Shown here one piece after another: positions 1 to 6,693 of a stretch of DNA of 6,862 bases. Origin of the DNA: an uncultured Verrucomicrobia subdivision 3 bacterium (GTDB lineage Bacteria > Verrucomicrobiota > Verrucomicrobiae > Limisphaerales > UBA11358); the NCBI GenBank assembly GCA_903847285.1, contig CAINDH010000007.1:1-6862 (forward strand). Reading direction: 5' to 3'. The notes under the pieces were generated by a model that ran no database searches, was not told the DNA's origin, and worked only from the letters and a program-made list of their open reading frames with translations. Position numbers and translations under genes: made by a program. Position 1 is the stretch's first letter. Each line of letters opens with the position of its first letter.

Positions 1-1967
1 ACGACGACGTTGGAATCCGGCTGCGTGGCGAGCACGATAGAGTAATTGGTGGTGCCACCCTCAATCACCGTGAACGGATTGGGAACGGTATAAAGAATTG
101 CCGGATTATCGATGTCGATATTGATGAGCGAAACATCCGAAGGATTGATACCGTTGTAGTGCGTGTCCGCGCTGGTCGCAGCGGCAGTGATGATTTTATA
201 AGCCTTGTTGCCATCTTTGCGGAAATCGGCCACTCCGGTGACGGTCACGGTTTGCGGCACGTTCCAGTTGGTGGTGTTGAATGTCAGCGAAGAAACTCCG
301 GGCAAACCTTCCGTCACCGTGTCCGAGGAAAGTCCGATGGCCACATCCGCCGAGGGCGCGCGGTTGAGAAACACGGAGAACTGCGCTGTGCCACCGGCTT
401 CCGTCGTGGTCAATCCATTCGTCGGAGTGACGGTGATGCCGTAGGTTTCGTCATCCACGTTGATGACGGAAACGTCATCGGGATTCAATCCATCGTAGCG
501 CAGGTCGCCGCTGGTAATCGCGGCGAGCACAATCGTGTAGGCTTTGTTTCCATCCGCCACCGCGTCGTCCACACCAGTGACGGTGACGGGCTGCGGAATG
601 TTCCAGTTGGTCGCATTGAACGTGAGCGAGTTGGTCGAGATGATTCCTTCCGAGGTATTGCTGGAAGACAAATTAATAACCACATCATTGGTCGGTGCGA
701 GATCAAGCTGAACGTTAAACGTTGCGGCCAGACCAAACTCAGCCGTATAAAGCGTGTTCGTCGGCGAAACGGTGACGCCCGGCGTCGCAGCGGGAATATA
801 AACGAACGAGCAGACGGGTTCGTTCGTGCAGGCTTCGAGGAGCGGTGGGAAAGCGCCCACGTCACGATTTTCAATGATCCAACTGTTCCCGTCTTTTTCG
901 TAGCTGACAGTGTTGTCAAAGTTGAACGTCTTGCCGCCTTCAGACGAAACCACCAGCACACCCTGATCCGGCGAGCCGCCGGGAATGGTGAGGCGATAGC
1001 GGCCAGCATCTAGATTTGTGCCGACAAACATGGTGGACACCGTGAACGCCGGCGTATTGCCGCTGTATATCAGCGTCACCGCGTTCGTGCCAGTGGCGTC
1101 GAGACCAAATTTTCCGGAAACGACGTTCGTATTGCTGCGCGGCACAAAAACAAACGCGCAGGGATCTTGTTCCAGCGAAGTGCCGTTGGCGAAATTGTCT
1201 TTCACATAAACTTCCCAGGTGCCGTCCCCGTTGGTAGCAGACGAACAATAGTTACCTTCATTCTTGGCATGGTTCACGAGCAATACGCCGGGGTTGGTGC
1301 GGGCGTCGTAGCCCTTGTTGAATAGGCTCACGCGGAACTCGCCGCTCTTCACGAACTTGAAATTGTAGCTGCCCACCGTCGTCACCGAGCTGTTTGCGCA
1401 GATCATGCCGGGCGACGCAGTGTATAGCGTATTTGAACCGCCGTTCACGGCGTTCGTGTTGCGAAACCAGCCGCAAAGCCAGTCGTTCGTGCGGAAATAC
1501 GCCACAGAACAATTAATGTTCAGTTCGCCGCGATCCGATTGCAGATTATTGATGGAGGCCCATAAGCCGGCCGGTCCGCCGTCAAACGTCGGCGCACTGT
1601 AATCTTTTTGCTCACTTGCCAGTTCTCCGTTGTCGCGGCCGTTCTGGGAAATGGAAACGATCGTGACGCCGCCGAGCGCGTCGTCACTGACCACGTCGCC
1701 GATCTGGAAATTGTAATCACCACGATTGGAGCCGGGGCGCACACGAAAATCGTTGATGGTTAACGGCGCGCTCACCGTCACAGAGTTCACCGTGTTGCCG
1801 GTGTCGTTTTGGATGACTTCTAAATTCCCCGCCGAGATATTGTGCGGCGGCGGTTTGGCGAAGATGTCCGTGGCCAGCAGCGCGACGGCCGCTGTTAGAG
1901 CAAGCGTCGTTCCGGCGAAAATTCGCCCGGTGCAAAAGGCAAGGCGGTTGAGGATGTTTTTCTTCAT
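1..1967 (-). CDS. Large secreted repeat protein with Calx-beta-like repeats (C-terminal end outside window)
   Basis: One uninterrupted frame runs from an ATG at 1967 to the left edge: 655 full codons and no stop, so the C-terminus is missing. The start is supported by a typical Sec signal peptide: a basic MKKNILNR start, a hydrophobic stretch at about residues 16-33, and likely cleavage after DIFA at residue 37. No strong Shine-Dalgarno sequence precedes it. Residues about 84-392 hold three degenerate beta-rich modules, each ending in a Cys followed by aromatic and hydrophobic residues. Residues 395-507 and 508-620 are two similar 113-residue units, and a third begins at 621. Each full unit carries a TNWN-PQ-VTVTGV core and an NP-DVS-IN end, resembling Calx-beta-type repeats of bacterial surface proteins. 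It is probably exported and may serve in adhesion or as a surface component. No catalytic motif was seen, and no anchor can be seen because the end is missing. It is divergent in theme from the phosphonate genes and probably functionally unrelated. Confidence 0.88.
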   Translation of the reverse strand, partial: MKKNILNRLAFCTGRIFAGTTLALTAAVALLATDIFAKPPPHNISAGNLEVIQNDTGNTVNSVTVSAPLTINDFRVRPGSNRGDYNFQIGDVVSDDALGGVTIVSISQNGRDNGELASEQKDYSAPTFDGGPAGLWASINNLQSDRGELNINCSVAYFRTNDWLCGWFRNTNAVNGGSNTLYTASPGMICANSSVTTVGSYNFKFVKSGEFRVSLFNKGYDARTNPGVLLVNHAKNEGNYCSSATNGDGTWEVYVKDNFANGTSLEQDPCAFVFVPRSNTNVVSGKFGLDATGTNAVTLIYSGNTPAFTVSTMFVGTNLDAGRYRLTIPGGSPDQGVLVVSSEGGKTFNFDNTVSYEKDGNSWIIENRDVGAFPPLLEACTNEPVCSFVYIPAATPGVTVSPTNTLYTAEFGLAATFNVQLDLAPTNDVVINLSSSNTSEGIISTNSLTFNATNWNIPQPVTVTGVDDAVADGNKAYTIVLAAITSGDLRYDGLNPDDVSVINVDDETYGITVTPTNGLTTTEAGGTAQFSVFLNRAPSADVAIGLSSDTVTEGLPGVSSLTFNTTNWNVPQTVTVTGVADFRKDGNKAYKIITAAATSADTHYNGINPSDVSLINIDIDNPAILYTVPNPFTVIEGGTTNYSIVLATQPDSNVV
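108..446 (-). repeat. Calx-beta-like repeat unit 2 (113 codons)
   Basis: Residues 508-620 of the secreted protein. It starts TYGITVTPTN and contains TNWNVPQTVTVTGVAD, then KDGNKAYKII, and ends NPSDVSLINIDID. It has the same length as unit 1, and the two share DNA identity too: a GTTCCAGTTGG word on the plus strand occurs at 261 and again at 600, exactly 339 nt apart. In this copy the acidic loop after TVTGV is VADFRKDG rather than VDDAVADG, so the two units have begun to diverge. A third unit begins at residue 621 (position 107) and runs off the window. Confidence 0.8.
447..785 (-). repeat. Calx-beta-like repeat unit 1 (113 codons)
   Basis: Residues 395-507 of the secreted protein. It starts TPGVTVSPTN and contains TNWNIPQPVTVTGVDD, then ADGNKAYTIV, and ends NPDDVSVINVDDE. 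It aligns without gaps to the next 113-residue unit. The acidic loops (VDDAVADG, INVDDE) are of the sort that bind calcium in Calx-beta domains, but calcium binding here is inference. Confidence 0.8.
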
Positions 1968-2228: not shown

Positions 2229-3518
2229 TCAAGCCGCCGTCTCCCGCCAATGTCGACGGTTGCGGGCAAAGAAAACCGCCGCCACCAGCAAGGCTGACAA
2301 TGATAGAACCGCCACCAGCCATCCGGTCGCCACAAACAGATCCAACACGTTACCACCGGGCTTGAAGAAATTTTTCGCCAGTATCACCGCCACGTAACCG
2401 AGATACCCAAAGGCATCCGCCAGATACAGCAGGTAGCCGATGTTGCCCCGTTCGCGCGTCATCGCAATCAGCCGTTCAAAAACGGTGGTGTGGACAGCCA
2501 CGTAAGGCACATACAAACCAAAACCCAGCAGCACGACGAACGCAAATGGCGTCAGGCTTCCCGCCGCCTGCGCGCCCAGTGTGAACAAAATTAAAAATAA
2601 TCCGCCCGCGGCGAGACCGAGGCTCACGAAGAACGCGCGTTGATTGTCGCGCACCAAAACCAGCAAACCGTTGATGACGAGCACGCCAAACGCGACCAGC
2701 ATTTCAGAACGTGCAAAGACGCTGGCATCCGGCTTCGCGCCCAGCCCGGCCCAGATTTCGGGGGCGAAATCCGCCCGCATGCTGCGCAGCACCGTCACCA
2801 GCAGATAGACTAGCGTGATGGCGATCAGCCCCGGCGCGTAGCGGCGAAAAAGCGCGCTGCGTTCGGCGTGATTCATCGGTGCGCGTTCGGAGCGGGCGGC
2901 GATGTCCGCAACGCTCGGCGGTGGAATCTGTTGCAGCATCCAGACAAAACCGGCCAGCGGCAGCAGAAAAATGATTCCCGCCACGCTGGGCATCCAGAGT
3001 TCGGAAATGCCGACCTGCAACAGATACGCACCCACAGATTTCGTGAAACCATCCGCTAGAATAAAACTCGCGCACAAGCCGGCCACGAACGCCTCGGTCA
3101 TTTTTCGGCCTTCTAAAAATCCCAGCACCAAACCGAACACCATGCCGAGTGGAAGTCCGTTCAGAAAAAGACACGCCACATTGTAAGGCGGCGGAATAAG
3201 CGCGAATAGCACGAGCGCCACCTGCGCGAGCAGCACCAGTCCGAACAGCATTTTTGCGCGCCGCGCCGCCGTCATTTCGGCGATGACTTTGATGCCGATG
3301 AATTTTGAAATCGTGTAGCCCAACACCTGCGCCAGCACCAGCCACGTTTTGAATCCAGCCGAGAATGGTTCTGCCGTGTAGCTGCCCGCCGTGAACGGTT
3401 TGCGGAACGCATACATACAGGCGTAAGTCCCGAACGCCGCCAGCACGCACCAGGTCGACATGAACCACGCGTTATGGAATGGCATGCCGGATGGCTTTTT
3501 GGTCGGCGCTTTATTCAT
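2229..3518 (-). CDS. DUF5690-type MFS transporter, candidate organophosphate or phosphonate permease
   Basis: 429 residues with about 12 hydrophobic segments and a hydrophilic central loop (about 198-228), the layout of a major facilitator permease. I recognise the sequence as DUF5690-like. By eye, against E. coli GlpT recalled from memory, helix 1 'YAFRKPF' (R39, K40) matches GlpT 'YLVRKNF' (R45, K46). Helix 2 'YTISKFIG' (K72) matches 'YGFSKFIMG' (K80). Helix 7 'LRSMRADFAP' (R245) matches 'LRYGILDWSP' (R269). A shared FGYLG falls in helix 11. These arginines hold the phosphate in GlpT, so transport of a phosphorylated or phosphonate compound across the inner membrane is a reasonable inference. 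GlpT His165 appears to correspond to K160, so the substrate probably differs. The start is an ATG at 3518; a GTG four codons earlier (3530) is also possible, and neither has a clear ribosome binding site. It lies 154 nt downstream of the AraC gene on the same strand. Confidence 0.85.
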   Translation of the reverse strand: MNKAPTKKPSGMPFHNAWFMSTWCVLAAFGTYACMYAFRKPFTAGSYTAEPFSAGFKTWLVLAQVLGYTISKFIGIKVIAEMTAARRAKMLFGLVLLAQVALVLFALIPPPYNVACLFLNGLPLGMVFGLVLGFLEGRKMTEAFVAGLCASFILADGFTKSVGAYLLQVGISELWMPSVAGIIFLLPLAGFVWMLQQIPPPSVADIAARSERAPMNHAERSALFRRYAPGLIAITLVYLLVTVLRSMRADFAPEIWAGLGAKPDASVFARSEMLVAFGVLVINGLLVLVRDNQRAFFVSLGLAAGGLFLILFTLGAQAAGSLTPFAFVVLLGFGLYVPYVAVHTTVFERLIAMTRERGNIGYLLYLADAFGYLGYVAVILAKNFFKPGGNVLDLFVATGWLVAVLSLSALLVAAVFFARNRRHWRETAA

Positions 3519-3672
3519 GGGCAGGAACACACACGTTGCGGAAAAAATTCATCTGATTTGTGTTTTGTTTGGTGAGCTAAACATCCTCGCAGCCGAGGGT
3601 AAGTTCATTTTGGGTGGCCTCACAAGGGAACGGGGTGTCGTCATTATTTCTTCGGGGAGGCACAACCTGATC

Positions 3673-4650
3673 TCAGACAATCGTTTTAACCAAACTGTAA
3701 CTTGGGCTGCTCAAGTTGTCGTTTTCGCGACATTCTTGCGGCGTAGTCTGGAATTCACGACGAAAGGCTGCGATGAAATGACTACTGGTCTTGAATCCGA
3801 GCTGGTAGCCAACCTCCTTGACCGAAAGTTTGGGATTGCGTAACAGTTCGCGTGCCCGCTCCAGCAACATCCGGTTGTAAAAACTCGCGGGAGCCTGTTG
3901 GGTGGATGCGAAAAAAAGTCGGGCGAAACGTTCTTCACTGCTGCCCAAAAATTGACAAAGATTTTGCAGACGGAAATTTTCTTTGCGACACCAGCGCATG
4001 AATTCATGGGCGCGCACAAAATCCCTTCGTGGTAAACGCGGCGAAAGATCCGCCGCAACTTTGTGGATATGCTTCTGCGGCCACGAGCGCAGGGCCTCGA
4101 CCAGCATCCGCATGGCCAGGGTTTCCACGACGATTTTATGGCCCGGCAAACCACCGCGTAATTCAGCTGCGATATTTCGCGCACAGTCATGCAGCACCTG
4201 ATTTTCCAGCGTGCTCATGAACGCCGGGCTGCTTTCATCGGTCAGCGGCGGCAGGTTGAATTCCTTGACCAGCGGGGCCAGCAAGCGTCGCTCGACAGAG
4301 AGCACCACCGCCTCACAATTTTTGCCGTTGCGAGAACGGTAGCCGCTGGTGTGTTCGATGCCGTGGTTACCAAAGATGGTCTCACCGCGACCCACCACTT
4401 CTGTATGTCCTAACTGCGATTTTACAATCTCGCCATCCAGACATACGACGATGGTGTATTCGGCGTAAGTGTGCGGCTGGAAAACGACATCGGCTTCCGG
4501 GCGAAAATTCTGGACGCACAACCGGCCATCTTCGCGCGTCCAAAAAACACTCGCGGGCTTTAAGTCATTGGCCGGGGTGCACGAAAGCGTCGGCGCAAGA
4601 TTTCCGAGGAAAACTTTGGGCGGCATCGTTTCGTTCACCGATTTGATCAT
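3673..4650 (-). CDS. AraC-family transcriptional regulator
   Basis: 325 residues. The N-terminal part (about 45-120) looks like the cupin-type AraC sensing domain: 'QPHTYAEY', 'GRGETIFGNHGIEH' and surrounding beta strands. The C-terminal part holds the two helix-turn-helix motifs of the family, at about 225-248 (LCQFLGSSEERFARLF) and about 274-308. The second contains the family signature elements LSVKEVGYQLGF, SHFIAAFRREF and TTPQECR. The frame stays open to a further upstream ATG at 4788, but the extra residues look non-native. The ATG at 4650 has an AAGGA ribosome binding site 7 nt upstream, so it was chosen. The gene is divergent from the phosphonatase-like hydrolase and dehydrogenase genes and upstream of the transporter, the classic position for a local regulator. 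It most likely senses a phosphonate or a breakdown intermediate and controls the shared intergenic region. The ligand and sign of control are unknown. Confidence 0.9.
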   Translation of the reverse strand: MIKSVNETMPPKVFLGNLAPTLSCTPANDLKPASVFWTREDGRLCVQNFRPEADVVFQPHTYAEYTIVVCLDGEIVKSQLGHTEVVGRGETIFGNHGIEHTSGYRSRNGKNCEAVVLSVERRLLAPLVKEFNLPPLTDESSPAFMSTLENQVLHDCARNIAAELRGGLPGHKIVVETLAMRMLVEALRSWPQKHIHKVAADLSPRLPRRDFVRAHEFMRWCRKENFRLQNLCQFLGSSEERFARLFFASTQQAPASFYNRMLLERARELLRNPKLSVKEVGYQLGFKTSSHFIAAFRREFQTTPQECRENDNLSSPSYSLVKTIV

Positions 4651-4858
4651 GGTCGAATCCTTAATCTGACTATGATAACCAAAGCAGCCGCTGAATAATG
4701 AAACGTTTGGGTGAAGAACATGTGACGATAAGCAGGCTGGATGATTTGTTTCAAGTTGCGCGGTTTGAAAACGACGGAAACAGAACATCGCTGCGGCTTG
4801 TCAGTGACGCCCGCGAATGGGCAAGATTCAGGGAACAATTTTAAAACAATTAAAACCT
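4651..4858. promoter_or_regulatory. Divergent promoter region between the AraC gene and the hydrolase-dehydrogenase unit
   Basis: 208 nt separate the two start codons and must contain both promoters. An inverted repeat TTTCAA-N10-TTGAAA lies at 4749-4770. Two near-tandem copies of AACAATT (4834-4840 and 4845-4851) are 11 bp apart, one helical turn, and sit immediately before the hydrolase start. AraC-type proteins usually bind direct repeats, so the second element deserves attention, although it lies very close to the start codon. I see no convincing -35/-10 pair on either strand. Confidence 0.5.
4658..4662 (-). promoter_or_regulatory. Ribosome binding site of the AraC gene
   Basis: AAGGA on the minus strand, 7 nt before the ATG at 4650. 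It decides between this start and the upstream in-frame ATG at 4788, which would run the coding region across most of the divergent promoter region. Confidence 0.65.
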
Positions 4859-5593
4859 ATGCCCTCGCCAAAAATAAAACTGGCCATGTTTGACCTGGCT
4901 GGAACCACCATCCGCGATGACGACGCCGTCAGCGGTTGCCTTTTCCGCGCCGCGCAGGAATTCAACCTGTCCACCTCCGCCGAGGAAATCCAACTGCACA
5001 TGGGCACGAACAAGATTCATCTTTACCAATTTCTGATCGCCAAGTCGCAAGGCATCAAAATGGATTTTCGGGATTTTGAAAAAGAGCAGTCGCCGGAGAC
5101 GCTGGATTTTGCCAAAAAGATTTTTCATCGCTACGAGGAGATCATGATCGCTCATTATCGGCGAGAGGTGATCCCGATTGAGGGCGCGGTGGAAACTTTC
5201 CGCTGGTGTCACGACCACGGCATCAAAGTCGCCACCGGCACCGGATTTCATCGCCATATCACCGAGGCGATCATGGACGGCCTCGGTTGGTTGCGGGACG
5301 GTTTGGTGGATGTGGCGGTGGATGTCGAGCACACGCCACATCATCGTGGCCGACCCGCGCCGTTCATGGTTTTTCACGCCATGAGCCAGTTGGATATCCA
5401 GAGCGTCCACGAAGTCATCAAACTTGGCGACACGCCGGCGGATATGCTGGAAGGCCACAACGCGGGTTGTCGCGGCATCATCGGTGTGTTGAGCGGTCCC
5501 CTGCCTATCACGGCGTGGGGCGGCTATCGTCACACACATGTCATCCCGAGCGTGAAAGATCTGCCGCAGTTGATTGAAACTGAATTTTGCTGA
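4859..5593 (+). CDS. Phosphonatase-like HAD hydrolase (PhnX-like)
   Basis: 244 residues from the ATG at 4859. This places the nucleophile Asp at residue 12, the same number as in B. cereus PhnX. An in-frame ATG at 4817 would add 14 residues that look unlike the family. Features seen: HAD motif I as DLAGTT (D12, with A14 in place of the usual second Asp, a hallmark of the phosphonatase group); cap-domain MGTNK at 48-52, whose K52 lines up with the Schiff-base lysine of PhnX (MGLLK, Lys53); motif II around ATGTGFHR (125-132); GRPAP at 164-168 with the characteristic Arg; and motif IV GDTPADMLEG (190-199) with acidic residues D191 and D195. It ends with a PhnX-like 'THVIPSVKDLPQLIE' tail. It fits the clade described in TIGRFAMs as PhnX-like, close to but distinct from phosphonoacetaldehyde hydrolase. 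C-P bond cleavage of an aldehyde phosphonate is the likely reaction, but the substrate is not established. It is probably cotranscribed with the dehydrogenase, which starts 2 nt after its stop. Confidence 0.9.
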   Translation: MPSPKIKLAMFDLAGTTIRDDDAVSGCLFRAAQEFNLSTSAEEIQLHMGTNKIHLYQFLIAKSQGIKMDFRDFEKEQSPETLDFAKKIFHRYEEIMIAHYRREVIPIEGAVETFRWCHDHGIKVATGTGFHRHITEAIMDGLGWLRDGLVDVAVDVEHTPHHRGRPAPFMVFHAMSQLDIQSVHEVIKLGDTPADMLEGHNAGCRGIIGVLSGPLPITAWGGYRHTHVIPSVKDLPQLIETEFC

Positions 5594-5595
5594 TC

Positions 5596-6693
5596 ATGAA
5601 AACCAGCCGCGCCGCCATCTTTCATGGAGCCAACCAGCCGTTTACTCTGGAATCCGTCGACGTGCCACCGTTGCGGGAAGGCGAAATTCTGGTGCGCAAT
5701 GAATACACTACGCTTTGTCGCAGCGACCTGAACACGTTTTGCGGCAAGCGGACGGAAAAAACACCGACAATTCTCGGTCATGAAATTGTCGGAGTTATCG
5801 AGGAATTTGGCCCTAATGCCCCAGCCATCGATTGTCGCGGTCACGTGTTACGCGAAGGCGACCGAATCACTTGGGCCATCTACGCTTCAGATCCCAATTC
5901 AAACATTGCCTTGGCAGGCATCCCGCAGAAAGCGTCCGGGTTATTCAAATACGGCCACGAAAAAATTCTTCCGGAGAGCCACTTGCACGGCGGCCTTGCG
6001 GATTATTGCATTCTGCGGCGGCATACTCCCGTCATTCGGATCGTGGCGGCCATTCCCTTGCCAGTGCTGGCCTTGATCAATTGTTCTGTGGCCACCGTCG
6101 CCGGGGCGCTTCGGCTAGCCGGCTCGGTGGCCGGACGCGATGTCTTGATCACGGGAGCTGGGATGCTCGGCGTGATCGGTTGCGCGATGTGCCGGAGTTC
6201 GGGTGCGCGCAACGTCATCGCTGTAGATGTAAGTGATGAACGATTGACGACGGCGCGGCGTTTTGGAGCGAATTTTAATCTGAATGCCGACGGTGAGGAT
6301 GGTTTGACCAAGGAAAAAATCGTCGCCTTGGCACCAGACCTGAATATCTCCATAGCGCTCGATTTCAGCGGCGTGCCGGAAACGATGGAAACGATGTTGG
6401 CCGCGTTGGGTATCGGTGGCGTGGCGGTATTAGTGGGCGCAACTTTTCCGCAACGCGCTCTGGCCATGAGCGCCGAGCAACTCATCCGAAATGTTCACAC
6501 CATCCGAGGGCTGCACAATTACAACCAGCAGGATTTTATCGCGGCGGTGGAATTCATGGAACGCCACCATGGCGAATTCCCATTCGTCGAGTTGGTTCAA
6601 GATGCCTTTGACTTGAACTCCGTGAACGAAGCATTCCAATGCGGGCTGAACACCGGGGCGTATCGTATCGGTATCCAAATTGATCGGCAGTGA
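5596..6693 (+). CDS. Zinc-type medium-chain alcohol dehydrogenase associated with phosphonate catabolism
   Basis: 365 residues. An N-terminal GroES-like fold carries the catalytic zinc ligands C41 (TLCRSD) and H62-E63 (GHEIVG). The third ligand is C163 (LINCSVATVAG). The Rossmann domain has GAGMLG at 187-192, and the second strand ends in 'VIAVDVSDE', where the Asp favours NAD over NADP. The stretch GIPQKASGLFKYGHE (108-122) is what I recall of the family listed as 'putative phosphonate catabolism associated alcohol dehydrogenase'. The lobe that normally carries four structural-zinc cysteines reads ASDPNSNIALAG (97-108) and has none. The reaction is presumably NAD-dependent oxidation or reduction of an alcohol or aldehyde arising from a phosphonate; the exact substrate is unknown. 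The ATG at 5596 follows the hydrolase stop by 2 nt with no clear ribosome binding site, so translation may be coupled. A TTG at 5587 is a possible alternative start. Confidence 0.9.
   Translation: MKTSRAAIFHGANQPFTLESVDVPPLREGEILVRNEYTTLCRSDLNTFCGKRTEKTPTILGHEIVGVIEEFGPNAPAIDCRGHVLREGDRITWAIYASDPNSNIALAGIPQKASGLFKYGHEKILPESHLHGGLADYCILRRHTPVIRIVAAIPLPVLALINCSVATVAGALRLAGSVAGRDVLITGAGMLGVIGCAMCRSSGARNVIAVDVSDERLTTARRFGANFNLNADGEDGLTKEKIVALAPDLNISIALDFSGVPETMETMLAALGIGGVAVLVGATFPQRALAMSAEQLIRNVHTIRGLHNYNQQDFIAAVEFMERHHGEFPFVELVQDAFDLNSVNEAFQCGLNTGAYRIGIQIDRQ

Follow-up and report, generated by a model that had tools for sequence, protein, structure and literature searches.

The DUF5690 locus and its neighbours

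The stretch of DNA analysed here (the window) covers 6,862 nucleotides, positions 1 to 6,862 of contig CAINDH010000007.1, from an uncultured Verrucomicrobia subdivision 3 bacterium (GCA_903847285.1). The minus strand carries a gene for a long surface-type protein, truncated at the window edge, the DUF5690 gene (2229..3518) and a gene for an AraC-family regulator (3673..4788). The DUF5690 product has 429 amino acids if translation starts at the ATG at position 3518, and 433 if the upstream GTG at 3530 is used. The AraC-family gene is located 5′ of the DUF5690 gene and is codirectional with it, and both diverge from the catabolic genes of the window. Its HTH_18 domain scores above the cut-off and its cupin/AraC-binding domains below it, and the protein is likely the regulator in the window. 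On the plus strand, a gene for a PhnX-like HAD hydrolase (4817..5593, with an alternative shorter start at the ATG at 4859) is followed by one for an HpnZ-type zinc alcohol dehydrogenase (5587..6693), whose start overlaps the end of the hydrolase gene. The nearest model for the dehydrogenase is TIGR03366, with 310.8 bits, below the cut-off of 328.1.

The preliminary description of this DNA had placed phosphonatase-type genes next to DUF5690, which stood in part. Alignment showed that the hydrolase retains the nucleophile motif DxAGT, as DLAGTT, and the cap-domain lysine, in MGTNK, both known from phosphonatases. It is PhnX-like but reaches the cut-off of neither nearest model, with 164.3 bits against 218.9 for TIGR03351 and 117.9 bits against 220 for TIGR01422. 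The same gene order, with the AraC and DUF5690 genes divergent from hydrolase and dehydrogenase, was found at a locus (L004) of another Verrucomicrobia subdivision 3 metagenome-assembled genome, in which a phnX gene over the cut-off is also present.

Family membership and predicted fold

The product of the 2229..3518 gene matches PF18943 (DUF5690) with an E value of 1.5e-136 and 455.7 bits, against a gathering cut-off of 25, over positions 1-381 of the 382 of the model. No MFS or OPA model of Pfam or NCBIfam (TIGR00881 and its kin) was matched at E <= 10. The family is large, with 6,282 DUF5690 matches among 7,997 candidates scored, and no paper naming DUF5690 was found in the literature searched. 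An AlphaFold2 model (pLDDT 89.9, pTM 0.88) predicts a two-domain MFS fold of 12 helices. The four best Foldseek matches in the PDB were all SLC37A4, an OPA exchanger, at 17-18% identity, and further close structural matches included NorA, DgoT, SPNS2 and sialin. GlpT (1pw4) ranked 35th and is absent from the 50 structure-aligned rows listed. When a fragment comprising helices 1-5 was compared, identity reached 23-26% in seven SLC37A4 rows, against 7-16% outside SLC37.

Conserved residues and register with the OPA family

Residues are numbered from the ATG at 3518. The preliminary description had likened R39-K40, K72, R245 and an FGYLG on helix 11 to motifs of E. coli GlpT. All of them are present in the window ORF (Y36-A-F-R39-K40, Y68-T-I-S-K72, L244-R245-S-M-R-A-D250-F and F370-G-Y372-L-G, together with D156-G-F-T-K160), and the GlpT motifs were quoted correctly, the MG1655 glpT sequence reading Y42-L-V-R45-K46, Y76-G-F-S-K80, L268-R269 and F391-G-Y393-L-G. 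Conservation was followed in an alignment of 105 rows, which joins 76 relatives with 29 rows from Planctomycetota, one Verrucomicrobiota genome, Bacteroidota and Novosphingobium. These rows hold 104 distinct sequences from five phyla, which fall into 94 clusters when grouped at 90% identity and 64 when grouped at 70%, and identity to the window protein falls to as low as 27%. R39, Y68, R245, E136, R138, S151, R349, D368 and Y372 are conserved in 105/105 rows, K72, K160 and Y339 in 104, and K40, Y32 and Y36 in 103, whereas position 250 holds D in 90 rows, N in 11, S in three and M in one.

Comparison of the DUF5690 profile with an OPA profile gave a full-length alignment with a P value of 3.5e-5, in which R39, K40, Y68, K72, R245 and D250 fall on R45, K46, Y76, K80, R269 and D274 of GlpT. 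The helix 1 pair R39-K40 (3399..3404, minus strand) corresponds to R28-K29 of SLC37A4, and K72 on helix 2 (3303..3305, minus strand) and Y68, four residues before it, correspond to K64 and Y60; these helix 1-2 residues were in register in 40/40 resamples. R245 on helix 7 (2784..2786, minus strand), the counterpart of SLC37A4 K240, was placed on R269 in 7/8 option sets and in all 16 of the 40 resamples that reached helix 7, the alignment stopping short of that helix in the remaining 24. D250, also on helix 7 (2769..2771, minus strand), corresponds to GlpT D274, which forms the gating salt bridge with K46, and Asp occupies its column in 6/20 OPA rows. According to published accounts, R45 is the main Pi ligand of GlpT, K46 and R269 act in the outward-facing state and K80 in the inward-facing state, and His165 and Y270 likewise contact Pi. 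For SLC37A4, one account has R28, Y60 and K64 anchoring the phosphate in simulations, and a second places K64 beside the phosphate but Y60 beside the sugar. By alignment, the helix 1, 2 and 7 residues of DUF5690 map onto this published OPA pocket, and no clear like residue was found in DUF5690 for His165 or Y270, the latter position being held by S246.

The profile–profile comparison had been proposed in the preliminary description, and it favoured the OPA family over the three other MFS families tried. Local alignments to the ACS, sugar-porter and Bcr/CflA profiles were short, with P values of 0.38, 0.024 and 0.15, and global alignment gave 0.031, 0.49 and 0.58. The OPA profile itself matched the ACS, Bcr/CflA and sugar-porter profiles at 4.8e-48, 2.3e-20 and 6.7e-18, and is thus far closer to them than to DUF5690. 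Switching off context pseudocounts reduced the OPA match to 102 columns (P 0.012), and hhalign against single E. coli MFS sequences, GlpT included, recovered nothing, the best match having a P value of 0.014 and a wrong register. Because the residues are conserved across 105 rows down to 27% identity and the OPA profile is matched, the likeness of the DUF5690 motifs to those of GlpT is not, judged on sequence, a matter of chance. Predicted fold, conserved residues and OPA register together point to an OPA-type phosphate site within an MFS fold, as the preliminary description had proposed.

An OPA-like pocket need not belong to a transporter. The 20-row OPA alignment includes UhpC, which its annotation describes as an inner-membrane glucose-6-phosphate sensor, and DUF5690 could by the same token be an OPA homologue that senses and does not transport. 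The regulator of the window is, however, of the soluble AraC type, so that no membrane sensor is needed, and a sensory role is regarded as extremely improbable.

The invariant D368 on helix 11 (2415..2417, minus strand) lies one turn before the tyrosine of FGYLG in a column where OPA rows have Gly in 13/20 cases and Asp in 2/20. D368 might bind the amine group of aminophosphonates or take part in proton coupling. The amine role stays no more than a candidate, because Asp occurs in 2/20 OPA rows and because some clusters combine HpnZ with PhnA/PhnY and lack PhnW and HpnW within 5 kb, which suggests an amine-free substrate. If D368 or another invariant acid carried a proton, DUF5690 would be a phosphonate importer of a different kind, a proton- or sodium-coupled symporter. 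The invariance of D368 would agree with such coupling, as would E136, R138, K160 and R349, which lack a like residue in most OPA rows, and the presence of the proton symporter DgoT among the close structural matches. Symport is nevertheless considered unlikely: the OPA residues for Pi are kept, among them the counterparts of K46 and D274, which form the gate (K40 in 103/105 rows, D250 in 90/105), and the ACS profile, to which DgoT-type proteins belong, was left unmatched.

The position of Lys160

The preliminary description had equated K160 on helix 5 (3039..3041, minus strand) with GlpT His165 and had taken the exchange as a sign of a different substrate. The evidence leans against this equivalence, which was not borne out by the fragment model or, less clearly, by the profile alignments. 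The fragment ending at K160, modelled by AlphaFold with 43 sequences, has a pLDDT of 75.7 and is weak in helix 5 (62-64); within this limit, each of the seven SLC37A4 rows listed pairs K160 with SLC37A4 residue 153, which is near GlpT 173. GlpT 173 lies approximately eight residues, or two helical turns, past His165. The step from SLC37A4 153 to GlpT 173 is approximate and draws on the GlpT sequence and on the human sequence between labelled residues. The labels that anchor it (W118, R126, T136 and W138) come from published accounts of SLC37A4. In the 16 resamples that reached K160, it was placed at 173 in seven, at 165 in four, at 197 in two and in a gap in three; in none of the eight option sets was it placed at 165, seven leaving it opposite a gap or beyond the aligned region and one placing it at 173. 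Judged from alignment and model, K160 is more likely to lie eight residues further along helix 5 than the His165 position, and it may form part of the outer gate.

Gene neighbourhood of the closest DUF5690 loci

One scan of species genomes yielded 204 confirmed DUF5690 loci, of which the 80 closest were taken as a sample. Recurrent neighbours, each judged by one representative against NCBIfam, included an HpnW/PbfD-type FAD oxidase (TIGR03364), PhnX (TIGR01422) and PhnA (TIGR02335) above the cut-off, and HpnZ (TIGR03366), the Phn-HD oxygenase (TIGR03276) and PhnY (TIGR03250) just below it. PhnA is phosphonoacetate hydrolase and PhnY phosphonoacetaldehyde dehydrogenase. A gene of this set, or PhnW, was present within 5 kb of DUF5690 at 76/80 loci, also under strict score limits, a share of 95% that is likely an upper bound because these are the 80 closest of the 204. 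When HpnZ was left out, 69/80 loci were still positive, and 67/80 had a same-strand marker within 400 bp. Two of the four marker-free loci are on short contigs (L002, 3.5 kb; L037, 4.1 kb), and the other two (L015 and L018) are without markers despite room around them. Combinations with HpnZ comprised HpnZ and PhnX at five loci, HpnZ, PhnA and PhnY at five, and HpnZ and PhnA at two. PbfD1 of Acinetobacter is annotated TIGR03364 and belongs to the FAD enzymes of phosphonate clusters for which a paper with a section on enzymes that degrade N-methyl-AEP reports oxidative activity as proven (PMC10590968).

The association also holds when it is viewed from the side of the catabolic genes. In 30 of the 80 genomes, with placement matched by coordinates, 16/19 strong Phn-HD genes (at least 204 bits) were inside the DUF5690 locus and 14/18 phnX genes over the cut-off lay within 5 kb of the DUF5690 gene. 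One of those 14 phnX genes adjoins a second copy of DUF5690 (L097).

Other transporters were sought around the same 80 loci. No ABC ATPase was found within 4.5 kb of DUF5690, and two were found farther off in 1.24 Mb, in a search with one ATPase as query, which remote ATPases could escape. No OPA/ACS permease was found in these stretches, and a Na/Pi-type gene was present at one locus (L069). The lack of ABC ATPases and OPA/ACS permeases leaves DUF5690 as the sole candidate transporter of the searched kinds at the 80 loci.

Wider sampling and distant phyla

Correction for the bias of the closest 80 was provided by 24 wider loci, 23 from 22 Planctomycetota genomes (the locus of G004 being already in the first sample as L025) and one from Verrucomicrobiota. 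A phosphonate marker occurred within 5 kb at 16/24 of them, a count better given as 15/24 because the “PhnY” match at L222 was rejected, its NCBIfam matches being those of an ordinary aldehyde dehydrogenase. HpnZ was the sole marker in four of the marker-positive loci. Over both samples, 76/80 of the closest loci and 15/24 of the wider ones, DUF5690 was linked to phosphonate genes, and the gene-linkage check on which the preliminary description could have fallen did not refute it.

Co-occurrence was studied in Planctomycetota, since the positives in an even sample of Verrucomicrobiota were too few (2/194 genomes, one of them G001, the sampling centre). Among 294 evenly drawn Planctomycetota genomes, which include G004, picked for having DUF5690, DUF5690 was present in 23 and phnX in 21, and 14 held both, against 1.64 expected (Fisher p 2.5e-13). 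Phn-HD was present in 22 genomes of the set and shared with DUF5690 in 10, against 1.72 expected (p 3.9e-7), the three gene searches being taken as drawing the same 294 genomes. More distant bacteria provided similar arrangements. DUF5690-phnX-phnW is annotated in Bacteroides finegoldii and Parabacteroides distasonis and was recognised by profiles in Phocaeicola massiliensis; Novosphingobium has DUF5690, a TIGR03364 oxidase and phnX. These four are the DUF5690-matching records of a plasmid collection, all of them with phosphonate genes. A control search also matched DUF5690 in Caulobacter vibrioides.

Eight of the 24 wider loci are without a marker (L211, L214, L215, L217, L224, L225 on a 4-kb contig, L230 and L233), and all eight keep R39, K72, K160, R245 and D368. 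Some members may carry other cargo, since the pocket is kept where phosphonate genes are absent. At L214, DUF5690 lies beside a CDP-alcohol phosphatidyltransferase gene, and at L215 beside such a gene and a nucleotidyltransferase gene; the best NCBIfam matches of these neighbours, far below the cut-off, include an inositol-phosphate cytidylyltransferase and an archaetidylinositol phosphate synthase. These neighbours and the eight marker-free loci would suit an organophosphate (phosphoethanolamine, phosphocholine or inositol phosphate) as native cargo, or a family split into a phosphonate branch and a branch for lipid head groups. The lipid genes were, however, found at only 2/24 loci, and single-sequence searches of the remaining loci found no more relatives, which makes this explanation quite doubtful. 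A cytidylyltransferase-like neighbour at L233 was set aside as lipid evidence, its letters resembling those of a heptose-phosphate adenylyltransferase.

An ABC ATPase was present within 4.5 kb at two of the wider loci (L227 and L231), and L227 has a match to an AEP-type ABC permease too. The sole-transporter argument therefore fails at these two loci, and confidence that DUF5690 is an importer is slightly lower. These ATPases could belong to importers, leaving DUF5690 to export surplus phosphate that the cluster produces, or a phosphonate intermediate that is toxic. Export could further draw on the release of Pi by P. putida growing on 2-aminoethylphosphonate as nitrogen source (PMC8316502), and on the capacity of GlpT for Pi:Pi exchange (PMC13046256). 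Against it, the 80 closest clusters would be left with neither an ABC ATPase within 4.5 kb nor an OPA/ACS permease for import, and a separate gene is found at L069 (Na/Pi type) and in Parabacteroides (PHO4 type). Export is regarded as very improbable.

Proposed transport mechanism

Predicted fold, residue conservation, OPA register in helices 1, 2 and 7 and gene linkage are the grounds for reading DUF5690 as an importer. With good though incomplete confidence, the family can be described as a far-diverged MFS family with the phosphate-binding heart of the OPA transporters, most likely acting as the inner-membrane phosphonate importer of the adjoining catabolic cluster. The preliminary description had reached a similar reading, of which the OPA-type site and the linkage to phosphonate genes in five phyla stood, but the identity of K160 with His165 did not.

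The cargo would be 2-aminoethylphosphonate and related compounds (the N-methyl, 1-hydroxy or 2-hydroxyethyl forms). By analogy with GlpT, R39 would grip the phosphonate group through the whole cycle, assisted by K72, with Y68 and Y32, in the inward-facing state and by K40 and R245 in the outward-facing state. K40 and D250 would form a gating salt bridge, which binding of the phosphonate would break, allowing the rocker switch. In exchange, Pi set free by the hydrolase would serve as counter-substrate; phosphonate is probably exchanged for phosphate, both the inward direction and the antiport being inferred. Such antiport would let uptake proceed despite excess phosphate, with the phosphonate serving as a source of nitrogen or carbon. 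Support for the exchange model comes from P. putida, in which Pi export and the need for the permease AepP have been described (PMC8316502, PMC9311074).

In the window, dehydrogenase and PhnX-like hydrolase would form the catabolic pair. A short route from 2-hydroxyethylphosphonate to phosphonoacetaldehyde would fit this pair as well as the clusters that combine HpnZ with PhnX or PhnA/PhnY, and the other loci fit aminoethylphosphonate or its N-methyl and hydroxy forms. A broader reading is advanced more tentatively, as one that has a reasonable chance of being correct but is held with less than even confidence: DUF5690 would be another MFS family that exchanges phosphonate for phosphate, the second known and diverged on its own, accepting several phosphonates and with a side branch that imports lipid head groups. 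It would range over at least Verrucomicrobiota, Planctomycetota, Acidobacteriota, Bacteroidota including gut Bacteroides, and Alphaproteobacteria, and carry aminoethyl- and N-methylaminoethylphosphonate, with 2-hydroxyethylphosphonate where HpnZ occurs only with PhnX or PhnA/PhnY.

If the importer reading is true, a function would be assigned to Pfam family PF18943, with its thousands of members, and many bacteria, human gut Bacteroides included, would gain a candidate uptake step for phosphonate catabolism. Exchange for phosphate, if true, would explain the use of phosphonates for nitrogen or carbon amid plentiful phosphate, with a bearing on phosphorus cycling. The mechanism itself is known; the gain is that a family of unknown function becomes a transporter open to testing, at a step of ecological importance, and the invariant residue set makes the importer claim directly testable.

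Comparison with known transport systems

The closest precedent comes from Pseudomonas putida BIRD-1, whose 2-aminoethylphosphonate permease AepP belongs to the OPA family and is required for growth on this compound as nitrogen or carbon source (PMC8316502, PMC9311074). A BIRD-1 mutant lacking AepXVW, AepP and AepSTU has been published. Uptake of phosphonates by an MFS protein is already known because AepP has been published, and the idea that an MFS importer replaces the usual ABC route, put forward in the preliminary description, fits the DUF5690 linkage but is not new (PMC8316502); what would be new is a second, far-diverged family. By its published description, AepP resembles DUF5690 in being an MFS permease with the phosphate residues of GlpT, and its gene adjoins phnWX, phnWAY or putative catabolic genes. 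Compared indirectly, through that description, the two differ: the identity of AepP to GlpT is given in the paper as 27.75% (E 9e-37), and for DUF5690 not one MFS or OPA model was matched at E <= 10. Homologues of AepP are reported from Verrucomicrobia and Bacteroidetes, among others. Because AepP is recognisable as a relative of GlpT and DUF5690 is not, a BLAST survey for AepP would probably miss DUF5690.

With GlpT, UhpT and SLC37A4, DUF5690 shares the fold, the RK pair of helix 1, the Tyr/Lys of helix 2 and the basic residue and Asp of helix 7, and the FGYLG of helix 11 is common to DUF5690 and GlpT. It differs from the OPA family in a sequence likeness that is barely detectable (P 3.5e-5), in its own invariant D368 and near-invariant K160, and in that a counterpart of His165 was not found. 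Like the ABC transporters PhnCDE, AepXVW, AepSTU and PhnSTU(V), DUF5690 lies within phosphonate clusters and would feed the same enzymes; these transporters, in contrast, are ATP-driven and built from several subunits. The phnWAY cluster of S. meliloti is likewise headed by a secondary transporter, of the Na/Pi type and not of the DUF5690 family, and a Na+ symporter there is discussed in PMC10574752.

Phosphonate genes around DUF5690

The HpnZ-type zinc alcohol dehydrogenase occurs near DUF5690 genes, and two of its combinations with other enzymes are of note. In the window it forms a pair with a PhnX-like hydrolase (4817-6693), and in five of the closest DUF5690 loci (L001, L007, L012, L016 and L028) it is found together with PhnA and PhnY, no match to PhnW being present within 5 kb in these five. 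Both pairings look like a putative 2-hydroxyethylphosphonate route via phosphonoacetaldehyde. At the other edge of the window, a long surface-type protein (3-1967, minus strand) is represented by its start only, and no Pfam match over the cut-off was obtained for it. In three further close loci (L004, L020 and L068), two hydrolases lie around a single DUF5690 gene, a PhnX with the higher score and a PhnX-like one that scores lower and adjoins HpnZ, as if one permease were common to two phosphonates. In a Planctomycetota genome (L232, 4465-5909), DUF5690 is broken up into two overlapping frames that adjoin phnW and phnX; the longer piece has Q at K72 and R at K160.

Upstream of the DUF5690-phnX-phnW operons of Bacteroides (L090, NZ_OY725933.1) and Parabacteroides (L088, NZ_OY725756.1) lie genes in divergent orientation for proteins of 297 (8008-8901) and 290 residues (3198-4070), respectively. 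Pfam and NCBIfam searches with both proteins gave no match, and these are possibly a new type of regulator. These two Bacteroidales records are catalogued as plasmids and contain household genes (glycine--tRNA ligase, dapB, lepB); despite this filing, they may be pieces of chromosome.

Lipid-type neighbours

In the wider sample, DUF5690 adjoins a CDP-alcohol phosphatidyltransferase in L214 (5846-6931), where DUF5690 is immediately followed by a 1,241-residue protein (8223-11948) that matches nothing in Pfam at E 1e-5, and a CDP-alcohol phosphatidyltransferase plus a nucleotidyltransferase in L215 (5077-6863). In these two loci DUF5690 could possibly supply lipid synthesis by importing a phosphorylated head group.
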